Assembly: GCF_029910215.1 (NCBI RefSeq)
Contig: NZ_CP110396.1
Location: 2,480,001-2,544,000 of the forward strand
Direction of reading: 5' to 3'
DNA from: Paraburkholderia sp. D15
GTDB lineage: Bacteria > Pseudomonadota > Gammaproteobacteria > Burkholderiales > Burkholderiaceae
Length of the DNA: 64,000 nucleotides
The stretch's first letter is position 1; each line of letters begins with the position of its first letter. Positions 12,149-20,590 of this stretch are shown in pieces. The position numbers were made by a program, and so were the translations under genes. Under the pieces are notes generated by a model, which worked only from the letters and a program-made list of their open reading frames with translations, searched no databases and was not told the origin of the DNA.

Positions 12149-12910
12149 TCAATCCACATTGAAGTGCACGCGAATGTCCTGCCTGCTTTCCATCGGATGA
12201 CCGGCTTGCATGGCGGGCGAGAAACGCCACTTGCGCAATACTTCCAGCAATAGTTGATTCAGGCGCGGGTTCGGCGTGGCTTTGACGAGATCCACGTCGA
12301 TCGATCCGTCGGCGTGAATCGTGAAGCGGGCGGTCGCGACGGTTCGATAAGCCTGGTCGCGCAGGTCGTCGGGAAGCTCGGGCAACGGTTGGGCGATCGC
12401 GCGCGCGGTGGTATCGCCAGGCGATGTCGTGGTGGACGCCGCGCGCTGTGTTTCGTTGTTCGTTGCGCTCGCACTCGGCGCCGGCGTTTCGGGCGCGGAA
12501 ATGGGCTTTTCCGTCGACGTCGACGTCGACGCGGTTGCCGCAGGCGTTGCGTTCTGGTCGACACGCCGATCATCCGGCACCGGCGATTTGACCGTGATGT
12601 GTGGCGACGGCGCGTGAACCGGACGAGCCACCTCCGGCTTCGATGGCCTCACTGGAACCGAGGGCACCGCCGCAGTTGCAGGCTGGGTCGACAAAGCGCG
12701 TGCCACAACCGGCCGGCCCGGTTCGACGGGTGGTTCCAGTTCCACCAGCCGCATCTCCACCGGTGGTTGTTCGCGCAACGTTGTCCGCGCTGGTGCCGCC
12801 AACCATTGGGCCGCCACGAACAACGCGCCAAGGCAGAGCAAGGTGGCGAAAAAAACCGCCAACGTCATTCGAACAGCCGGGGCATCGTCCGCGTAAGCGG
12901 TTAAACGCAT
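12149..12910 (-). CDS. tonB: TonB energy transducer
   Basis: 253 residues from the ATG at 12910, eight bp behind the exbD stop. One N-terminal membrane helix (MTLAVFFATLLCLGALFVAA) is followed by a Pro/Ala/Thr-rich periplasmic spacer (about 60-170) and a C-terminal TonB domain (DLRDQAYRTVATARF, then LLLEVLRKWRFSPA). TonB couples the proton gradient, via ExbB/ExbD, to outer-membrane receptors. It is the last gene of a receptor-exbB-exbD-tonB operon, so it probably serves that receptor specifically. A longer in-frame start at 13009 would overlap exbD by about 90 bp and is less likely. Confidence 0.9.
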   Translation of the reverse strand: MRLTAYADDAPAVRMTLAVFFATLLCLGALFVAAQWLAAPARTTLREQPPVEMRLVELEPPVEPGRPVVARALSTQPATAAVPSVPVRPSKPEVARPVHAPSPHITVKSPVPDDRRVDQNATPAATASTSTSTEKPISAPETPAPSASATNNETQRAASTTTSPGDTTARAIAQPLPELPDDLRDQAYRTVATARFTIHADGSIDVDLVKATPNPRLNQLLLEVLRKWRFSPAMQAGHPMESRQDIRVHFNVD

Positions 12911-12917
12911 CCGTTGC

Positions 12918-13316
12918 CTATTCACGATGAACCGCGACCAGAAAACGCTCCGCGCCAGCCCGTCGCGCCGCGAGCATCGCCTGGACGACGACGCCATGGC
13001 CGGCCGCATCGTCGGCGGCGATCACGACGTTGCCGTCCGGCTGCAATAGCCGTTTGACCGCCGGCTCGATCTGATCGGCCTGCACACGCAGATGATTGAC
13101 GAACACCACGTTGTGGCTATCCACGGAAATCGTCAGCGGCTCGTGCGCATTCAGCGCTTGCGCGCGGCCGGCGGGCAGCGTGATCCTGACCGCGTCGAGT
13201 CGCTGCATCGCGAGCGAAGCGAGCATGAAGGTCGCAAGCAGAAAGAACATCACATCGATCATCGGAATGATTTCGATGCGACCGCGCCGGGCCGCGCGCG
13301 AGCGTTTGAATTTCAC
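12918..13316 (-). CDS. exbD: ExbD biopolymer transport protein
   Basis: 132 residues: a basic cytoplasmic N-terminus (MKFKRSRAARRGRIEIIPMI), one membrane helix carrying the family's essential aspartate in PMIDVMFFLLATFML, and a periplasmic ExbD/TolR domain. ExbD uses the protonation of that aspartate to energise TonB. Its ATG overlaps the exbB stop by four bases, showing translational coupling. Confidence 0.95.
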   Translation of the reverse strand: MKFKRSRAARRGRIEIIPMIDVMFFLLATFMLASLAMQRLDAVRITLPAGRAQALNAHEPLTISVDSHNVVFVNHLRVQADQIEPAVKRLLQPDGNVVIAADDAAGHGVVVQAMLAARRAGAERFLVAVHRE

Positions 13317-14008
13317 GCCTGCACTCCCGCTTCGAGATGAGCCGAAGCGCCGGCTTCGACGACGGCCTCAGGAGAAATGCCATCCGCCGCGAGCCGTGCC
13401 TCCCCCAATCGCGCATTCGCGAACGCTTCGAGCTCGTCCATCAAACGTTCAAGCCGCCGCGAAAAATAGTTGAACGCAAATAGCGCGAACAACGCGACCA
13501 CCAAGCCGATCGCGGTCGCCACCAGCGACTGCGCGACGCCGCCAGTCACGCCGCCCGGATCGACGAGCCCCGCGCCGCCGAACAACTGGAACGAATGCAT
13601 CATGCCCACGATCGTCCCGAGCAAACCCAGCAGCGGCGCGGCCGTCACGATGGTTTCAAGCACCCAGAAGCCGCGGCTCATGTCGCGCTCGATACGCGAG
13701 GCCAAGGCTTGCGCATTCGCCTCGCGCAACCATAACGGCGTGTGCGGATCGGGCGCCCAGGGGGCGCTCATCCGCCGGAACGCGTTCTGCTCGCCCACCG
13801 CGCTCAGTCGCGCGGACCAATCCATCCGCGCAGCGGGCACGGCGATCTGATAAGCGTCGCGTATCGACGCGGGCAAACGCCCGGACCGCGCGAACACATA
13901 GCCGCGATCCAGAATGATCGCCACCGCCGCGACAGCCAGAATCGCGAGCGGATAAACGACCCATCCGCCCACGCGTACCGCTGTCAGTACATTCGTCCAC
14001 TCTTGCAT
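13313..14008 (-). CDS. exbB: ExbB/TolQ/MotA-family proton channel protein
   Basis: 231 residues with three membrane helices: an N-terminal one (VVYPLAILAVAAVAIILDRG) and two after the large cytoplasmic loop (ETIVTAAPLLGLLGTIVGMM and QSLVATAIGLVVALFALFAF), the standard ExbB arrangement. The GLLGTIVGM and LVATAIGLVVA segments are typical of the family. It lies 30 bp behind the receptor gene and overlaps exbD by four bases. It forms the pentameric part of the ExbBD motor. Confidence 0.95.
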   Translation of the reverse strand: MQEWTNVLTAVRVGGWVVYPLAILAVAAVAIILDRGYVFARSGRLPASIRDAYQIAVPAARMDWSARLSAVGEQNAFRRMSAPWAPDPHTPLWLREANAQALASRIERDMSRGFWVLETIVTAAPLLGLLGTIVGMMHSFQLFGGAGLVDPGGVTGGVAQSLVATAIGLVVALFALFAFNYFSRRLERLMDELEAFANARLGEARLAADGISPEAVVEAGASAHLEAGVQA

Positions 14009-14038
14009 GACCTACCTCTACGCAACGACCTGACCGAT

Positions 14039-16195
14039 TCAGAAATGCTTGGTGATGCCCGCATAAACGGCGAAATGCGGACCGTACTGCGGCGCGCCGA
14101 CACCGATGCCGGAGCCGTCGCGCAACTCGTACACACGGTTGAACGCGTTGATGACCATCAGGCGCGCATCGAACTTGCCGATCAACGGCTGATTGAAATG
14201 CTGGATCACGCCGAGGTTGATCTGCGCGTAGACAGGCAGACGGTCGGTATTCGCAAAGCCGCTACGCAAACCGGTGCCGACGAGACCATCGAACGTGAAG
14301 GTGGTACGGCCGAGATCGTAGGCGCCGCCGAACGACGCGGTAATGCGCTGATCGTGGTCGAGGTACACCCAGTGATTGTTGATGTAGGCCAGTTCCGCCG
14401 GATCGAAGTTGAACTGCGCGGAATCGATGTCCTTGCCCTGCGCGCGGCTATACGCGATGTTCAGATACGCGGACAGGTTGTCCTGTTTGTAGTTCGCGGT
14501 GAATTCGAGCCCGTACACGCGGCCGTATTGATAGTTGAACGGCGTGTAGATGAGCGCGGTTCCGAACTGGCCTTCGTCGAGCAGATTGGTCGATTTCTTG
14601 TAGTACGCGTCGAGGCCGACCGTCAGGTTCGAGCCGAGACGCTGCGTCACGCCGAGATCGAAATAGTGACTGCGTTCCGGTTGCACCTGGTCGTTCTGGC
14701 TCGACGGACTCTGATTGGTCGTGCCGTTGAAACGGTTGATGGTCGAGCCCGACACCAGCTCGAACGCGGGTGGCGTGAAATAGCGCGCATAGCCTGCGTG
14801 AAACGTAGTGGTCGGCGTCAACGCATAGACCAGCCCGATGCGCGGGCTCAACTGGCTCGCGCTGACGTACTCGTCCATTTTGTCGTAGCGCAGACCGTAG
14901 TTCAGCGTGAGCTTGCTGGTCAGTTTCCATTCGTCCTGCACGTAAGCGCTATACAGGTAGCCGGTTTTGCTGCTCGAATCCTGAATGTTGAACGGCTGGT
15001 CGGAGAGTTGGTTGCCCGCATCGTCGACGGCGAAGACGTTCACGCTGTCGTCGAATACCGCATGCTCCTGCTGGAAGAACACGCCGGCGCGAATCGTGTG
15101 CTTGTCGTTGAGCCGCCACGTGGTATCCACCTGCGCGCCGTTGGCCGAATTGCTGTGGAAGTCTTTCGATGCCACGCCGTTGAACAGCAGATCGCCGACC
15201 GGGTCCGGGTTGAACTGGGTGCGCGTGTAGCGCGTGAACAACGCGACCTGATAGTCGAGCGCGCCGCCGTTGGTGCCCTGCAGCGCGACCACCGCGAAGT
15301 TGTTCAGCTCGGACTGCGTTTCGTTCAGTTGACTCGAATCGAAGGTGTTGTTGCCGTTCAGCGTGAAGTTGGTCGCGAGACCCGGCGTGTTGGGAATCTG
15401 GAACTGGTTGCTGGTGGTGCCGAACATCAGGCTCACGCGAGTGAGCGGATTGATGATGTACGACATATAACCGAATGCATCGCCCTGACGCGTGTGATCG
15501 TGAATCGCGCTCGCGCTGGAGGTCGGGTTCTCGATGCCGAGATTGTTCACGCCAAGCGAGCCGCTGAAGTAATAGCTGAACGGCCCCTGACTGCCGAACA
15601 CATCCGCGCTGGTCTTCAGCGTTTGATGGCTGCCGCCGAACACGTCGATCGAGCCGCCGTTGCCCGTATCGCCGGTCTTGGTGCGGATGTCTACCACGCC
15701 GGCCGTGCGATAGCCGTATTGCGCGGGCAACGCCCCGGTCAGCAGATTCACCTGGTCGATGATGCGCGTGTCGAGTGCCTGCCCGAAACCGCTGATCGGC
15801 TCGGGAATGATGATGCCGTTGATCCGGTATTGCAGATTCGCGTGATCGCCGCGCACGTGCAGTTGCCCGTACGAGTCGCTGGCCACGCCGGGCGCCTGCA
15901 GCAGCACCTGGTTGAGCGGCGTGTCCTGCCCCGCGGGCAGCGCGTCGATATCGGCCTGGCTGAAGCGGTACACGCTGCTGCCGGTCTCGGGCAGCAAGCC
16001 GTTGCGCGCGCGGTCGAGCCGTTTGGCGTTCACCTGGACGTCGAGCGTATCGTTCTTCGTGGCGGTTGCGCCCGATGTATCGGGGGCGGTGCCGGTTGGC
16101 GCGCTTTCGTCCGTGGCGGCGTGGACGTGGGCGGAGAGGCCGGAGAGCGCGAAGAGCAGGAGTACGGCATGGGAGACACGCGTGCGGTTTTTCAT
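14039..16195 (-). CDS. TonB-dependent outer-membrane receptor, possibly for zinc
   Basis: 718 residues from the ATG at 16195, which opens a clear signal peptide (MKNRTRVSHAVLLLFALSGL, cleaved after VHA). A plug domain (about 60-190; ALPAGQDTPLNQVLLQAPGV, QLHVRGDHANLQYRINGI) precedes a 22-strand type barrel ending in GPHFAVYAGITKHF with C-terminal Phe. Substrate is not evident from sequence. Upstream lies a palindrome close to Zur boxes, so zinc (free or bound to a small carrier) is the best guess. First gene of an operon with its own exbB-exbD-tonB, a sign of a dedicated uptake system. The longer frame to 16300 lacks a signal peptide at its start and is not preferred. Confidence 0.88.
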   Translation of the reverse strand: MKNRTRVSHAVLLLFALSGLSAHVHAATDESAPTGTAPDTSGATATKNDTLDVQVNAKRLDRARNGLLPETGSSVYRFSQADIDALPAGQDTPLNQVLLQAPGVASDSYGQLHVRGDHANLQYRINGIIIPEPISGFGQALDTRIIDQVNLLTGALPAQYGYRTAGVVDIRTKTGDTGNGGSIDVFGGSHQTLKTSADVFGSQGPFSYYFSGSLGVNNLGIENPTSSASAIHDHTRQGDAFGYMSYIINPLTRVSLMFGTTSNQFQIPNTPGLATNFTLNGNNTFDSSQLNETQSELNNFAVVALQGTNGGALDYQVALFTRYTRTQFNPDPVGDLLFNGVASKDFHSNSANGAQVDTTWRLNDKHTIRAGVFFQQEHAVFDDSVNVFAVDDAGNQLSDQPFNIQDSSSKTGYLYSAYVQDEWKLTSKLTLNYGLRYDKMDEYVSASQLSPRIGLVYALTPTTTFHAGYARYFTPPAFELVSGSTINRFNGTTNQSPSSQNDQVQPERSHYFDLGVTQRLGSNLTVGLDAYYKKSTNLLDEGQFGTALIYTPFNYQYGRVYGLEFTANYKQDNLSAYLNIAYSRAQGKDIDSAQFNFDPAELAYINNHWVYLDHDQRITASFGGAYDLGRTTFTFDGLVGTGLRSGFANTDRLPVYAQINLGVIQHFNQPLIGKFDARLMVINAFNRVYELRDGSGIGVGAPQYGPHFAVYAGITKHF

Positions 16196-16331
16196 CGTTA
16201 TGGCGAGTGTGTTGGCGACGGGATGGAAGCGTTTTCGTCGAGTTGACGGTGTTGCTGTTTTCTGCGGACGAGCGAGGCCGGCGTGGCGGGTCCGCCCCAC
16301 GCGAGATTGTCGACTGCTGTCTTAGGCCTAA

Positions 16332-16348
16332 AATGTTATAACATTACA
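16332..16348 (-). promoter_or_regulatory. Zur-box-like operator upstream of the receptor operon
   Basis: 16332-16345 is a perfect 14-bp palindrome, AATGTTATAACATT. The 15-base stretch TGTTATAACATTACA (16334-16348) agrees with the general proteobacterial Zur consensus TGTTATAATATAACA at 13 positions. It lies about 140 bp upstream of the receptor start, in a place fit for repression. Zinc control is inference. Confidence 0.5.
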
Positions 16349-16738
16349 TAAAGTTTGGAAACTAAAAGTTGAGGAGCGTGTCAGGCGAGGCGCGTGGAGA
16401 AGGGAACTCTCCCGGTCGAAAGAGGGAGGCGCGCGAGTGTGCCCACGAAACGAGGCGAAGAACGATACGGCATCCTGACGATCAATCCCGGCTTGCAGTC
16501 CACCTCGACTTAAGCAGGTGGCGATCACGACAACCACATGCACCAGTTGTTGACGACATCCCGCAAACCCTTGCCCAGTAAGGCCGCCAAACGTTTGCGC
16601 GATTCCCTCCGACGAATCCATGCACTAAAGAAATGCATTGCGCATGTCGTTATCCCGTCAAATAAGTCAGGACCATCGGGCCTCCGCGCGTGCCTGAGCG
16701 CGGAAGCCCGAGGAATCAGCTCTTCGGGGGAATGAATC
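16349..16738. other. Divergent intergenic region with a hairpin before the FliG-like gene
   Basis: No gene seen. It separates the divergent receptor operon and the FliG/MotA/MotB-like operon and must hold the latter's promoter. At 16678-16709 an inverted repeat (GGGC-TCCGCGC against GCGCGGA-GCCC, one mismatch, 8-base loop) ends about 30 bp before the start codon, so it would fold in the mRNA leader; there is no U-run behind it. Confidence 0.5.
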
Positions 16739-17983
16739 TTGAATCACCAACGATCGCCATGGTCGCGCACAGCGGCACCGGGCGAGGTCATCTATTCGGA
16801 AGGCTTCGCAGGCGACGCCGTCATCTACGTCATCGCGGATGGCAAAGTCGAAATCTCCACGCAGTGCGATGAAAAGAAAGTGATTCTCGCGACCTTAGGC
16901 AAGGGCGAGTTCTTCGGCGAAGCGGCGTTGCTGCCGGCCGAACCGCGCGCGCATACCGCCAAGGCGCTCAGCTTCTGTCAGTTGACCGTGATCGCGGCCA
17001 ATATCGTGGAAGAGGAACTCGAGCGCGTGTCGCCGTTGCTGCGCCATATCGTGCGCACCATGATCCGCCGCGCGAAGAAGAAGGACGACGTGCTCGCCAC
17101 CAACACGCACGCGGATTTCCTGCCGGGCGTCGTGTCGTACGCGCATGTGCTGTCGCTGATGGCCGGTATCGAAAGCAACGATCGCGCGGATGGCCGCATG
17201 CGCCGCGCGAACGGCGACGAGTTCTCGGTGCCGCTGCCCGAAGTGATCAAGAAGTGTCACGCGATCGCCGGTCATTCGCGTCCGCATGTGATGGCCATGC
17301 TCAAGCGCATGGAAAAGCTCAATCTGGTCACGCTCGAACCGGGCCGCTCGGAACGCATGAGCAATCTGCCCGCACGCTATTCGGCGTACGACGGCGCCAC
17401 CGGCCGCCAGCTCGTCACGTTCGACCCGTTCCGGATCACCGAGCGCGCGCAGCAGGTTGCGGATCACGATCTGGATCTGTCGATCAGCAGCGAACTGGAG
17501 CTGATCGAACTGGACGATCTGGAAGCGCTGATCGGCGTCGAGAAGAAGGTGATTCTCAACAAGCTCTCGCATGCGGAAATCGCGGACGATCTGTTTGCGT
17601 TCCGCAAGACCAAGGTGCTGAACTACGTCGAGGAAAAGGGCATCAGTTATTTTTCGCGTCGCACGGTGCGCGGCGCGGGCGATCTGAAATCGCTCGACGA
17701 CCTGGAGTTCGTCGATCAACGCACGCTGTTCGAAGCCGTGAGCGCATTCGATACCTACGACCTCGCGAAGCTGCTCTCCGCGATCACCGGGCAACCGGTG
17801 GCCGAGCGCTTGATGTCGGTGATGACCGAGGCGAGGAAGAAGGAAGTGTCGTGGGTGATGCGTCGCGAGATCAAGATCGATCCGCTCGAAATCGCTGAAA
17901 TCGAAATGCGCTTCCTCGATACGGTCCGTGCACTGAAGGCGCCGGCGGGCAACGCGGCGCCGTTGTCCAGTGAAAACGTCTGA
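16739..17983 (+). CDS. Cyclic-nucleotide-binding protein with FliG-like C-terminal domains
   Basis: 414 residues, predicted cytoplasmic. Residues about 13-110 form a cNMP-binding domain with an intact phosphate-binding cassette (FFGEAALLPAEPRAHTA). Residues about 130-205 resemble a Crp-type winged helix-turn-helix (IAGHSRPHVMAMLKRMEKLN). The C-terminal 180 residues resemble FliG: LELIELDDLEALIGVEKKV, then DLEFVDQRTLFEAVSAF and MTEARKKEVSWVMRRE, the pattern of FliG middle/C-terminal repeats. FliG is the rotor protein that touches MotA, and MotA and MotB homologues follow directly. The role is unknown; a second-messenger-gated partner of a MotAB-type motor is my inference. Start uncertain: TTG at 16739 behind GGGGG; an ATG at 16732 is in another frame. 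Confidence 0.75.
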   Translation: MNHQRSPWSRTAAPGEVIYSEGFAGDAVIYVIADGKVEISTQCDEKKVILATLGKGEFFGEAALLPAEPRAHTAKALSFCQLTVIAANIVEEELERVSPLLRHIVRTMIRRAKKKDDVLATNTHADFLPGVVSYAHVLSLMAGIESNDRADGRMRRANGDEFSVPLPEVIKKCHAIAGHSRPHVMAMLKRMEKLNLVTLEPGRSERMSNLPARYSAYDGATGRQLVTFDPFRITERAQQVADHDLDLSISSELELIELDDLEALIGVEKKVILNKLSHAEIADDLFAFRKTKVLNYVEEKGISYFSRRTVRGAGDLKSLDDLEFVDQRTLFEAVSAFDTYDLAKLLSAITGQPVAERLMSVMTEARKKEVSWVMRREIKIDPLEIAEIEMRFLDTVRALKAPAGNAAPLSSENV

Positions 17984-18055
17984 CGCGGTCAGCACGATTG
18001 AGCCGATGATTTTCTCCGCGGAGCCGAAGGCCCGCGCAGCGCTTCGAGAGGACGT

Positions 18056-18820
18056 ATGGATCTGTTGACGCTATTTGGCGCCGTGTTCGGCGTGGCGGCG
18101 ATCGTCGCCGGGTTTTCGCTGGAAGGCGGGCATTTTTCGACGCTGTTCCAGCTGGAGGCATTCGTCATCGTGCTGGGCGGCACGTTCGGCGCGGTGATGA
18201 TCCAGAACACGTGGGCGCGTTTCTTCGACGGCATCAAGCAACTGCGTCTTGCATTCGTGACGGCGCGGCAGGTGGATCGGGAAAGCCTCTCGGTGCTGCT
18301 CGAATGGGGCGATCAGGCGAAGCTGAACGGCATGCTCGCGTTCGAATCGATCGACTCCGGCGGGATCAGTCCGTTCGCGCGGCGCGGCCTCGAATTGCTC
18401 GCGAACGGCGTGTCCACCGCCGTGCTCGAAGACGCGTTGCAACGCGAGCTGGATGCGTACGAACGCAATCACGTGGCCGCCGCGCGCATCTGGCAGCAGG
18501 CCGGTGGTTACGCGCCGACCTTCGGCATTCTCGGCGCGGTGCTCGGACTGATTCAGGTGACCGGTCACCTGCTCGACCCCGCGCAACTCGGGCAAGGCAT
18601 CGCCACCGCATTCATCGCGACGCTGTATGGGCTCGCGTTGGCCAATCTGGTGTTTCTGCCGCTGTACGGCAAGATTCGCTCGCAGGTGGATAGCGAGTTG
18701 CGCTTCAGGCGGCTCTATTTCGACGGCTTGCTGGCGATCTCGCGCAAGGAGTCGCCGCATACGATCGAGACGCGTCTCGCCGGCGACGTGCGGGCCAGGT
18801 CGGCGGAATTGCTGGGGTAG
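18056..18820 (+). CDS. MotA-family stator protein
   Basis: 254 residues with four membrane helices: two at the N-terminus (DLLTLFGAVFGVAAIVAGF; FQLEAFVIVLGGTFGAVMI) and two near the C-terminus (YAPTFGILGAVLGLIQVTGH; IATAFIATLYGLALANLVF). The helix-3 proline of MotA-type channels is present (YAPTFG). The cytoplasmic loop holds SPFARRGLELLANG, like the charged MotA/PomA segment that contacts FliG. Length fits MotA/PomA and is far too short for ZorA of Zorya defence. With the MotB-like product it should form a proton- or sodium-driven 5:2 motor. No flagellar genes lie nearby, so it may be a second stator or drive something else. Confidence 0.88.
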   Translation: MDLLTLFGAVFGVAAIVAGFSLEGGHFSTLFQLEAFVIVLGGTFGAVMIQNTWARFFDGIKQLRLAFVTARQVDRESLSVLLEWGDQAKLNGMLAFESIDSGGISPFARRGLELLANGVSTAVLEDALQRELDAYERNHVAAARIWQQAGGYAPTFGILGAVLGLIQVTGHLLDPAQLGQGIATAFIATLYGLALANLVFLPLYGKIRSQVDSELRFRRLYFDGLLAISRKESPHTIETRLAGDVRARSAELLG

Positions 18821-18827
18821 CGGGCGT

Positions 18828-19550
18828 ATGAACTCACTCTCGGGCAACTCCGGCAACGCGGGAAGCCGCCGCTTCAAGGCGGATAAAACCGGCTATCAGG
18901 AAACCGACGACGAGGGCGACGGACAGTCCGGCCGCTGGCTGATTTCCTACTCGGACCTGATCACGACGCTGATGGTGCTGTTCCTTGCGCTGTACGCGCT
19001 GCAACTGGCGAAGAACCGGGATCTGGAAATCAAGGCGCTGGCGCAGCGCACGGCGAATAAGGTGAACGTGCCGAATGCGCCGAGTGCGCCGGCCCCCGCA
19101 TCCAGCTCCCCGGATGCCGCCAGGAAACAACTCCTGTCGCTGCTGGCGCCGCTGCAAAACGACCGGCGCATCACGATCGCCAGCGCGACGCAGGGGATCG
19201 AGATCGCGATCAACGCGCGCATCCTGTTCAACTCCGGCGACGCACGCCTGCTGCCCGAATCGTTCGACGTGTTGAGCCGGATCGCCACGGTGCTGCGCGA
19301 GCGTTCGAAGAACAACATTCTCGTGGAAGGCCACACGGACAACGTGCCGATCGCCACGGCGAAATTCGAATCGAACTGGGAGTTGTCGTCGGCGCGCGCG
19401 GGCGCCGTGGTCCGTTTCTTCGCGGACAAAGGCATCGAGCCGCACAGAATGGCGGCGATCGGCCGCGCGGACAATTTCCCGCTGATCATCGGCGACGACG
19501 CGGCGGCGCGCGCCGCGAACCGGCGCGTGACCATTCTGGTCGAGTATTGA
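18828..19550 (+). CDS. MotB-family stator protein with OmpA domain
   Basis: 240 residues from the ATG at 18828, eight bp behind the MotA-like stop. A charged N-terminus of about 35 residues precedes one membrane helix, WLISYSDLITTLMVLFLALY, whose Asp43 is in the place of the ion-binding aspartate of MotB. A plug/linker region (70-120) leads to an OmpA-type peptidoglycan-binding domain (ILVEGHTDNVPI, then ELSSARAGAVVRFF and RAANRRVTILVEY). The helix composition is MotB-like rather than ExbD-like, and the OmpA domain implies anchoring to the cell wall. Last gene of the three-gene unit. Confidence 0.9.
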   Translation: MNSLSGNSGNAGSRRFKADKTGYQETDDEGDGQSGRWLISYSDLITTLMVLFLALYALQLAKNRDLEIKALAQRTANKVNVPNAPSAPAPASSSPDAARKQLLSLLAPLQNDRRITIASATQGIEIAINARILFNSGDARLLPESFDVLSRIATVLRERSKNNILVEGHTDNVPIATAKFESNWELSSARAGAVVRFFADKGIEPHRMAAIGRADNFPLIIGDDAAARAANRRVTILVEY

Positions 19551-19705
19551 ACGAAGTGCTGGCGAACAGGCAGTGAGCAAGCGATAAACAGGCAGGTAAA
19601 AACGCAAACCCGAGCGCGCCCGTAGCGCCCGCACTCCCCGAGCCGTTCCGCGCTAAAGTGTCGGCTGCACTACCGTCGAACGCTGTTCCGGGAGCTCTTC
19701 ACGTC

Positions 19706-20590
19706 ATGCCAGTCACCACCTTGCCGGACCCGGCCGTCGCCGTCGATGTCGATACGTCGCTCGGCCGTTTTCTGCGCGACCGCCGCACGCGTCTGCAACC
19801 CGGTCCCGACGCCCCAGGCCGTCGCCGCACGCCGGGCTTGCGGCGCGAGGAAGTCGCCACGCGCGCCAACGTGAGCGTCGCGTGGTACACGTGGCTCGAA
19901 CAGGGGCGCGGCGGTCCGCCCTCGAACGAAGTACTGGAACGGCTCGCCCGCGCGCTCGAACTCGACGCCGCCGGCCGCGAGATGTTGTTCCTGCTCGCGC
20001 AGCAGCGTCCGCCGCCACTGAGTCCGGTCGCCACGTCGAGCGTGACGCCGGCATTGCAACGCGTGCTGGACGGCATGCCGCTCCATCCCGCGATCATCAA
20101 GACACCGACATGGGACGTGGTCGCGTGGAATGCCGCCGCCGTTGCCGTGCTCGGCGATTACGCGGCGGTGCCGGCACGCGAGCGCAACGTGCTGCGGCGT
20201 CTGTTCGGCGATCCGGCCATGCGCGCCTGCCAGCCGCATTGGCAGGAGAGCGCGCGAGTCGCCGTCGCGGTGTTTCGTTTCGACATCGCGCGCGGGGGCG
20301 GTTCCGTCGAGGCGTTGGCGCTGGCCGCCGAACTGCAGGAGAGCAGCGAGGATTTCCGTCTGCTGTGGGCCGAGAACGAAGTGCTCAATCACTGGGGCGG
20401 CACGAAGCAGATGATGCATTCGGTGGCCGGACCGCTGACGCTCGAATACACCGGTTTCCCGGTGGCGGGCGCGGAGGGTTTGAGCATGGTGGTGTTCACG
20501 CCGGTGTCCGCCGGCGATGTCGCCGCGGTCGAGTCGCTGGTATCGCGCAAGGCACGCCAACCAGGCAGCACCACAAGCCGCGCCCCTTGA
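19706..20590 (+). CDS. XRE-type regulator with MmyB-like ligand domain
   Basis: 294 residues from the ATG at 19706, chosen for GGGAG upstream. N-terminal helix-turn-helix: LGRFLRDRRTRLQP, then TPGLRREEVATRANVSVAWY and the conserved WLEQGRGGPPS typical of this family. The C-terminal part (about 105-280) is the MmyB-like ligand-binding domain: WDVVAWNAAAVAVLGDY, LWAENEVLNHWGGTKQMMHS. Such proteins usually regulate a neighbouring gene in response to a small, often fatty-acid-like ligand. No clear partner stands next to it; the next gene is a separate LysR regulator on the same strand. Confidence 0.9.
   Translation: MPVTTLPDPAVAVDVDTSLGRFLRDRRTRLQPGPDAPGRRRTPGLRREEVATRANVSVAWYTWLEQGRGGPPSNEVLERLARALELDAAGREMLFLLAQQRPPPLSPVATSSVTPALQRVLDGMPLHPAIIKTPTWDVVAWNAAAVAVLGDYAAVPARERNVLRRLFGDPAMRACQPHWQESARVAVAVFRFDIARGGGSVEALALAAELQESSEDFRLLWAENEVLNHWGGTKQMMHSVAGPLTLEYTGFPVAGAEGLSMVVFTPVSAGDVAAVESLVSRKARQPGSTTSRAP

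Follow-up and report, generated by a model that had tools for sequence, protein, structure and literature searches.

What is the role of a protein in which a sensor for cyclic nucleotides is fused to a flagellar rotor domain, and which shares its operon with a stator? The question is raised by three consecutive plus-strand genes within the 64,000-nucleotide stretch of the Paraburkholderia sp. D15 genome that we analysed (contig NZ_CP110396.1, positions 2,480,001 to 2,544,000; hereafter the window). They encode a cyclic-mononucleotide (cNMP)-binding protein with a C-terminal FliG_C-type domain, a MotA homologue and a MotB homologue, and their positions (Table 1) confirm those given in a preliminary description of this DNA. 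In our estimate the chances are evenly balanced that the trio is an accessory flagellar stator with its own dedicated, ligand-controlled clutch regulator. Such a stator would consist of five MotA and two MotB subunits, as expected by homology. The FliG_C domain of the CRP-family regulator would dock on its cognate MotA, at the cytoplasmic face that meets the rotor, and a cyclic nucleotide at the N-terminal domain would alter how tightly the two are docked, so that the regulator would act as a clutch that either holds the stator idle or releases it for the C-ring.

Sensor, FliG_C-type domain and stator subunits

In Pfam searches the product of the first gene matches cNMP_binding at 65.2 bits (cut-off 27.5), and the domain was matched in 37/37 family members at E ≤ 1. 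In a 30-row alignment, G60 and E61 of the nucleotide pocket do not vary and R70 hardly does; from these features of the sequence we infer that the protein may bind a cyclic nucleotide, which could be cAMP, cGMP or a relative of these. The sensor is followed by a CRP-type winged helix, a feature absent from the preliminary description. A profile of the family matches CRP-family structures through this winged helix, to position 195 for GlxR and Mtb CRP and to position 197 for Escherichia coli CAP, and aligns to position 213 (E 1.6e-17) with Bd2879, a cNMP-binding putative transcription factor according to the accessible part of PMC12750041. It is this profile that carries the winged-helix assignment, through positions 195-213; Pfam matches of single members to winged helices are weak, and the protein of locus L119 matches the CRP model over residues 13-196 at 42.5 bits, under the model cut-off of 266. 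The matches listed by Foldseek, all CRP-type structures, are hardly informative on the remainder of the protein, and the structure matches that extend past the cNMP domain include Bd2879, with a high root mean square deviation over the two domains. The first gene product thus resembles CRP/FNR regulators and Bd2879 in its cNMP domain and winged helix, and Bd1971 in its cNMP domain; however, a second winged helix is present in Bd2879 and an EAL domain in Bd1971, and the part of the source available to us makes no mention of FliG (PMC12750041). Residues 220-310 are helical in the predicted model and could be assigned to no domain, with only weak, scattered helix-turn-helix matches (HTH_17 in 2/37 members, best E 0.016; MarR_2 in 3/37, best E 0.0082).

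The preliminary description combined the cNMP domain with several FliG-like domains at residues 225-400. The cNMP domain and one FliG_C domain hold up, the latter over approximately residues 315-403, but the extent was overstated and several FliG domains are rejected because FliG_C alone was found: FliG_N and FliG_M are absent from the families matched by the 37 members, and the canonical FliG of the same genome, used as control, matches all three domains. On its own, the protein of the window matches FliG_C under the cut-off (residues 319-400, 17.4 bits against 23.3). The domain is over the cut-off in 6/6 distant homologues and in 0/3 divergent Burkholderiaceae proteins (two without a match, one at 16.4 bits), and it was matched in 34/37 family members at a lax E ≤ 1, so that the FliG profile match for the C-terminal part, which the preliminary description had left to be checked, is present at the level of the family. 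Both predicted models match the FliG structure 3ajc. Compared with FliG, a C-terminal profile built from Burkholderiaceae gave P 0.017 and a probability of 2.7%, and one including distant members P 5e-5 and a probability of 67%. Against the PDB, the best FliG chain of the Burkholderiaceae profile (E 0.43) came behind glycogen phosphorylase (E 0.35), and canonical FliG was not recovered when the own genome was searched with the C-terminal profile. The similarity to FliG exceeds chance. By the sequence of its relatives and by fold, the C-terminal domain of the first gene product is like that of FliG, from which the protein differs in the two missing domains, in torque-helix acids that are not paired and in the fused CRP-type sensor.

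Pfam likewise bears out the reading of the second and third genes as MotA and as MotB with an OmpA domain. The MotA matches MotA_ExbB (90.9 bits) and MotA_N (36.4 bits), which together span its whole length, and passes the NCBIfam flagellar motor protein model PRK09109 (250.5, cut-off 237); the MotB matches OmpA (62.1 bits) and MotB_plug (40.1 bits), and its nearest NCBIfam model is MotD, under that model's cut-off (183 against 283). The motor residues that we examined are intact. The MotA of the window has E97 at the position of Escherichia coli E98 (E in 35/36 trio MotAs), prolines P154 and P202 (both conserved prolines in 36/36), and K89 at the position of R90, which is K in 33/33 Burkholderiaceae trio MotAs and R in 10/10 reference stators. 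Asp43 in the membrane helix of MotB, correctly named in the preliminary description, is Asp in every MotB row aligned, the broken copy of genome G485 left out.

The pair resembles Pseudomonas MotCD in several ways: its MotA shares 40% identity with the P. aeruginosa protein whose gene precedes motD, its MotB is nearest to the MotD model, and it is an additional stator in a genome with other MotA genes. The P. aeruginosa pair, however, lies among che genes with no cNMP/FliG_C partner annotated, and differs at the R90 position. Elsewhere the own genome encodes two more MotA proteins, in which the cytoplasmic insert is longer, one per large contig (L051, C1:4315151; L052, C2:744696), so that the genome has at least three MotA genes including that of the trio. 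For Burkholderia terrae BS001, the accessible part of PMC5462819 reports three motA/motB pairs and no MotCD. In a MotA tree of 26 rows, with 7 of 23 inner branches starred and a very long TolQ row, the Burkholderiaceae trio MotAs form one clade (95/100) and the MotAs of three distant trios, introduced below, group with PomA (97/94). A single MotA lineage for all trios is therefore rejected, and the two clades indicate that the regulator occurs with two stator lineages: the distant trios have a MotA of the other lineage, yet the same FliG_C-bearing partner.

Distribution of the trio and the flagellar regulon

The family survey matched the first gene in 76/299 genomes and found it (near) full-length in 71. 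A stop lies within the matched stretch in 4 of these 71: the gene is truly broken in G485, the stops of G357 and G503 are at the C-terminal end (open reading frames, ORFs, of 408 and 404 amino acids, aa), and the sequence of G491 was not inspected. The other five comprise pieces at contig ends (G513, G533), cNMP-only matches (G356, G538) and, in G291, a copy of 37% identity that lacks motAB. The preliminary description had also asked whether the three genes occur together, and they do: motA and then motB follow the gene in 33/33 inspected genomes of the 71 (30 loci plus G462, G493 and G472), with motB mostly incomplete at the end of the inspected stretch and broken in G485; in G258 a peptidase-like gene is inserted before motB. 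In plasmid or chromid records the C-terminal part adjoins motA in 8/8 cases (Burkholderia 4, Paraburkholderia 2, Caballeronia 2), not all of them independent of the genome set, since the SBC1 record coincides with G493. Neighbours of the trio, identified in part, vary elsewhere. With dN/dS of 0.06-0.10 for the first two genes and 0.12-0.21 for motB (against the loci of 3 relatives, some motB copies incomplete), the trio genes are under purifying selection.

Outside the family, three genomes share the order cNMP-FliG gene, motA, motB, at 26-30% identity: G710, G823 and G699. The trio of G710 is preceded, on the same strand, by a gene whose product has a Guanylate_cyc domain (31.8 bits, cut-off 21.9). 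Among wider surveys, that of the phylum with the full-length profile matched 80/398 genomes, 2 of them over the whole length, both Burkholderiaceae, and the others ending by position 230. The order survey at E ≤ 1e-15 matched 1/250, the own genome, and the class survey with the C-terminal profile 6/369, including the own genome and a weak match in G811 (E 0.0024) that was not counted. The trio is deeply conserved.

Two side observations come from G823 and from a further genome, G824. In G823, an extra small cNMP-binding ORF (L118:7852-8322, 157 aa, 34.5 bits) lies between the cNMP-FliG gene and motA. In G824, the ORFs L167:3146-4747 (534 aa, 57.9 bits) and L168:3-2864 (954 aa, 75.7 bits, two stretches) match FliG_C well over the cut-off and nothing else in Pfam at E ≤ 0.01; this genome also has a canonical FliG, and several of its unusual proteins seem to make use of FliG_C.

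Upstream of the first gene we predict a sigma-28 (FliA)-type promoter. A strict form of the pattern, TAAAG...G(T/C)CG(T/A)(T/A)A, composed after the alignment was viewed, occurs 78-148 bp before the start in 22/32 upstream regions against 0.1% of shuffles, and a looser form in 29/32 against 0.4%; within the window the strict pattern has this sole match on both strands. Outside the set from which the pattern came, the best-scoring sites of B. cenocepacia and PGU19 are at -111 and -110, with 10/13 positions, and scores of 10 or 11 occur elsewhere too in 3.4 kb stretches. Both flagellin genes of the own genome have TCAAGTTT-N11-GCCGTCAA upstream (10/13, found by the looser score), which is close to the TCAAG...GCCGTAAA form at some trio loci. 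Neither the own fli stretch (L040) nor the two other own MotA loci contained the pattern. A perfect palindrome, CAAACGTTTG, precedes the promoter-like site; we take it to resemble a LacI/GalR-type operator.

A canonical FliG_C match over the cut-off is present in 229/299 genomes of the family and in 70/71 of those with the gene (E at most 1e-37). The remaining one, G485, has no canonical FliG, its sole FliG_C match being the trio copy; there the cNMP gene is split over two frames and motB, in three pieces, over three, and motA is whole. In two records, PGU19 and B. cenocepacia, a chemoreceptor gene flanks the trio. The preliminary description had stressed that no flagellar gene is nearby. This is true locally and misleading overall, because the sigma-28-like site, the co-occurrence with canonical FliG and the decay in G485 together point to the flagellar regulon.

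The locus and its surroundings

The trio is on the second contig (G000:C2) of an 8.3 Mb genome, with canonical FliG on another contig. The nearest named protein matches are from Paraburkholderia, and P. bryophila and P. caledonica are examples of species with the gene. Read by eye, its neighbours are a minus-strand gene for a TonB-dependent receptor-like protein upstream and one for a helix-turn-helix regulator-like protein downstream. No RNA family reached its gathering score within 16200-19800. By eye, the minus strand at 12149-16300 holds TonB-, ExbD- and ExbB-like genes together with the receptor-like gene; the ExbB-like gene matches MotA_ExbB, and the set looks like a second motor of the MotA/ExbB superfamily within 5 kb of the trio. 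This cluster is probably unrelated to the trio.

Table 1. Features of the trio locus, in window coordinates
Feature	Position	Strand	Description
Perfect palindrome CAAACGTTTG	16588..16597		upstream of promoter-like site; exact in 11/32 upstream regions, 12 with one end base relaxed
Sigma-28 (FliA)-like site TAAAG-N15-GTCGTTA	16626..16652	+	113 bp before start codon; predicted only
cNMP/FliG_C gene	16739..17983	+	TTG start, 414 aa; CRP-type cNMP-binding protein, C-terminal FliG_C
Cyclic-nucleotide-binding domain	16769..17023	+	residues 11-95
CRP-like winged helix	17117..17341	+	residues ~127-201, boundaries taken from model
FliG_C-type domain	17681..17947	+	residues 315-403
motA gene	18056..18820	+	254 aa; MotA-type stator subunit, MotC/PomA class
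motB gene	18828..19550	+	240 aa; MotB-type stator subunit, OmpA peptidoglycan-binding domain

Clutch, tethered factor and other readings

The preliminary description suggested an ion-driven motor or channel whose partner is set by a ligand. Of this, a cNMP sensor, a FliG-type rotor domain and a stator in a conserved operon stand, and the free-standing, non-flagellar motor does not. Several observations weigh against the clutch that we propose in its place, above all at the torque helix. We take the charged residues of that helix in FliG to be K264, R281, D288, D289 and R297. The stator-rotor contacts described in the accessible part of PMC12505986 are R90 with D288-D289 and E98 with R281. We aligned 33 Burkholderiaceae rows from 32 genomes and 13 distant rows, and in none of them do the two acids occur together. 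The D288 column is W in 33/33 Burkholderiaceae rows and D in 3/13 distant ones; at D289, 33/33 have V or I and 11/13 have T, with no acid in 12/13. The R281 column holds A, T or G in Burkholderiaceae, with an Arg one residue further; K264 and R281 are retained in 11/13 distant rows, not in Burkholderiaceae, and the R297 column is D in 45/46 rows. As the acids are not kept as a pair, docking cannot simply copy the flagellar torque contact, which we therefore rule out as a model. On the stator side, the R90 position is hydrophobic in 3/3 distant trio MotAs. Distant trios keep the E98/R281 pair on both sides and have lost the R90/D289 pair on both sides, a pattern that would fit a re-tuned contact in this alignment-dependent comparison of few lineages.

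Gene context and promoter add to these objections. No motAB flank the gene at 4/4 loci of Ideonella oryzae, Rubrivivax rivuli, AAP51 and AAP65 (flanks ≤8 kb, shorter downstream in AAP51) or in the inspected flank of G824, and the copy without motAB in G291 (L035:9432-10583) is divergent and shortened, with part of the middle missing. The sigma-28-like pattern does not match the sites of the own flagellin genes, and no convincing site was seen before the distant trios or the orphan genes. Sequencing errors could account for the breaks in G485. Fisher's test of the gene against canonical FliG over the 299 genomes gave P 1e-8, to which we attach little weight because genome size and ancestry confound the co-occurrence.

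A last objection, that the protein may act on DNA because its winged helix is retained, leads to the main rival. This is a transcription factor tethered to the stator, a CRP-type protein that would be parked on free MotA via FliG_C, displaced when the stator engages rotor FliG under load, and so moved to DNA, such that motor load or surface contact would reach gene expression. The CRP homology through the winged helix, the structure match to Bd2879 and the recognition-helix stretch GHSRPHVMAMLKRM, which is strongly conserved among Burkholderiaceae, speak for it; against it, the distant trios have lost or never had this stretch and no operator was found for it, and we regard the tethered factor as unlikely. 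The clutch and the parked transcription factor would rest on one and the same putative contact, that of FliG_C with MotA. A formulation that spans both, in which a detached FliG_C domain mimicking FliG reads or gates the flagellar stator, either as a cNMP clutch or as a load sensor that frees a transcription factor, is a tentative one that we place just short of an even chance.

If FliG_C made no contact with MotA, its fold being a relic or a generic helical domain, the trio would be an ordinary alternative stator next to a plain CRP-type transcriptional regulator. We consider this distinctly unlikely, since distant relatives, three of them located before motAB, match FliG_C over the cut-off, and conservation of the C-terminal part is good (mean column identity 72%). 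The intact motor residues and the location of operon and canonical FliG on separate contigs would suit an independent rotary motor, in which the FliG-like proteins form their own small rotor, driven by MotA/MotB apart from flagella. That reading is very improbable in view of the missing FliG_N and FliG_M, the lack of a ring gene seen beside the trio and the flagellar-type promoter-like site; moreover, among the 71 family genomes with the gene only 1 lacks canonical FliG, and the copies there are broken. The preliminary description also raised a defence-like complex. As expected for a MotB/OmpA protein, the MotB matches ZorB models of the Zorya system, but PADLOC gave no Zorya A match, or any other, for the MotA, and no Zorya partner was recognised by eye among the adjoining genes. 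The cNMP protein has only weak matches there, to AbiEi (residues 278-362, 18.4 bits, E 3e-4, spanning the middle part and the start of FliG_C) and to an effector model (15 bits), which we leave without explanation, and a defence system is rejected on the PADLOC results. The clutch and the tethered factor are both likelier than an independent motor or a role in defence.

Stators are under the control of brakes that respond to cyclic di-GMP (c-di-GMP), among them YcgR, which has a PilZ fold. Regulators at the MotA/FliG interface are thus already known and provide precedents for that of the trio: YcgR acts on MotA/FliG under c-di-GMP, EpsE is a clutch on FliG (PMC13432727), and the c-di-GMP-linked FlgZ acts on MotCD (PMC6855561). 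They have other folds than the trio protein, EpsE being glycosyltransferase-like, and in the accessible parts of these two sources no FliG-type domain is mentioned for them. The literature that we searched, with subscription papers and preprints outside its scope, yielded no description of the protein or the operon.

If the clutch or the load-sensor reading is true, a cyclic mononucleotide would be tied directly to a stator through rotor mimicry, by a regulator that, unlike the c-di-GMP brakes, resembles what the motor pushes. The bacteria that carry such genes were isolated from soil, an insect and people; in them the trio would be a genetically simple means of studying how accessory stators are idled, and how information on motor load or surface contact is passed on to gene expression.

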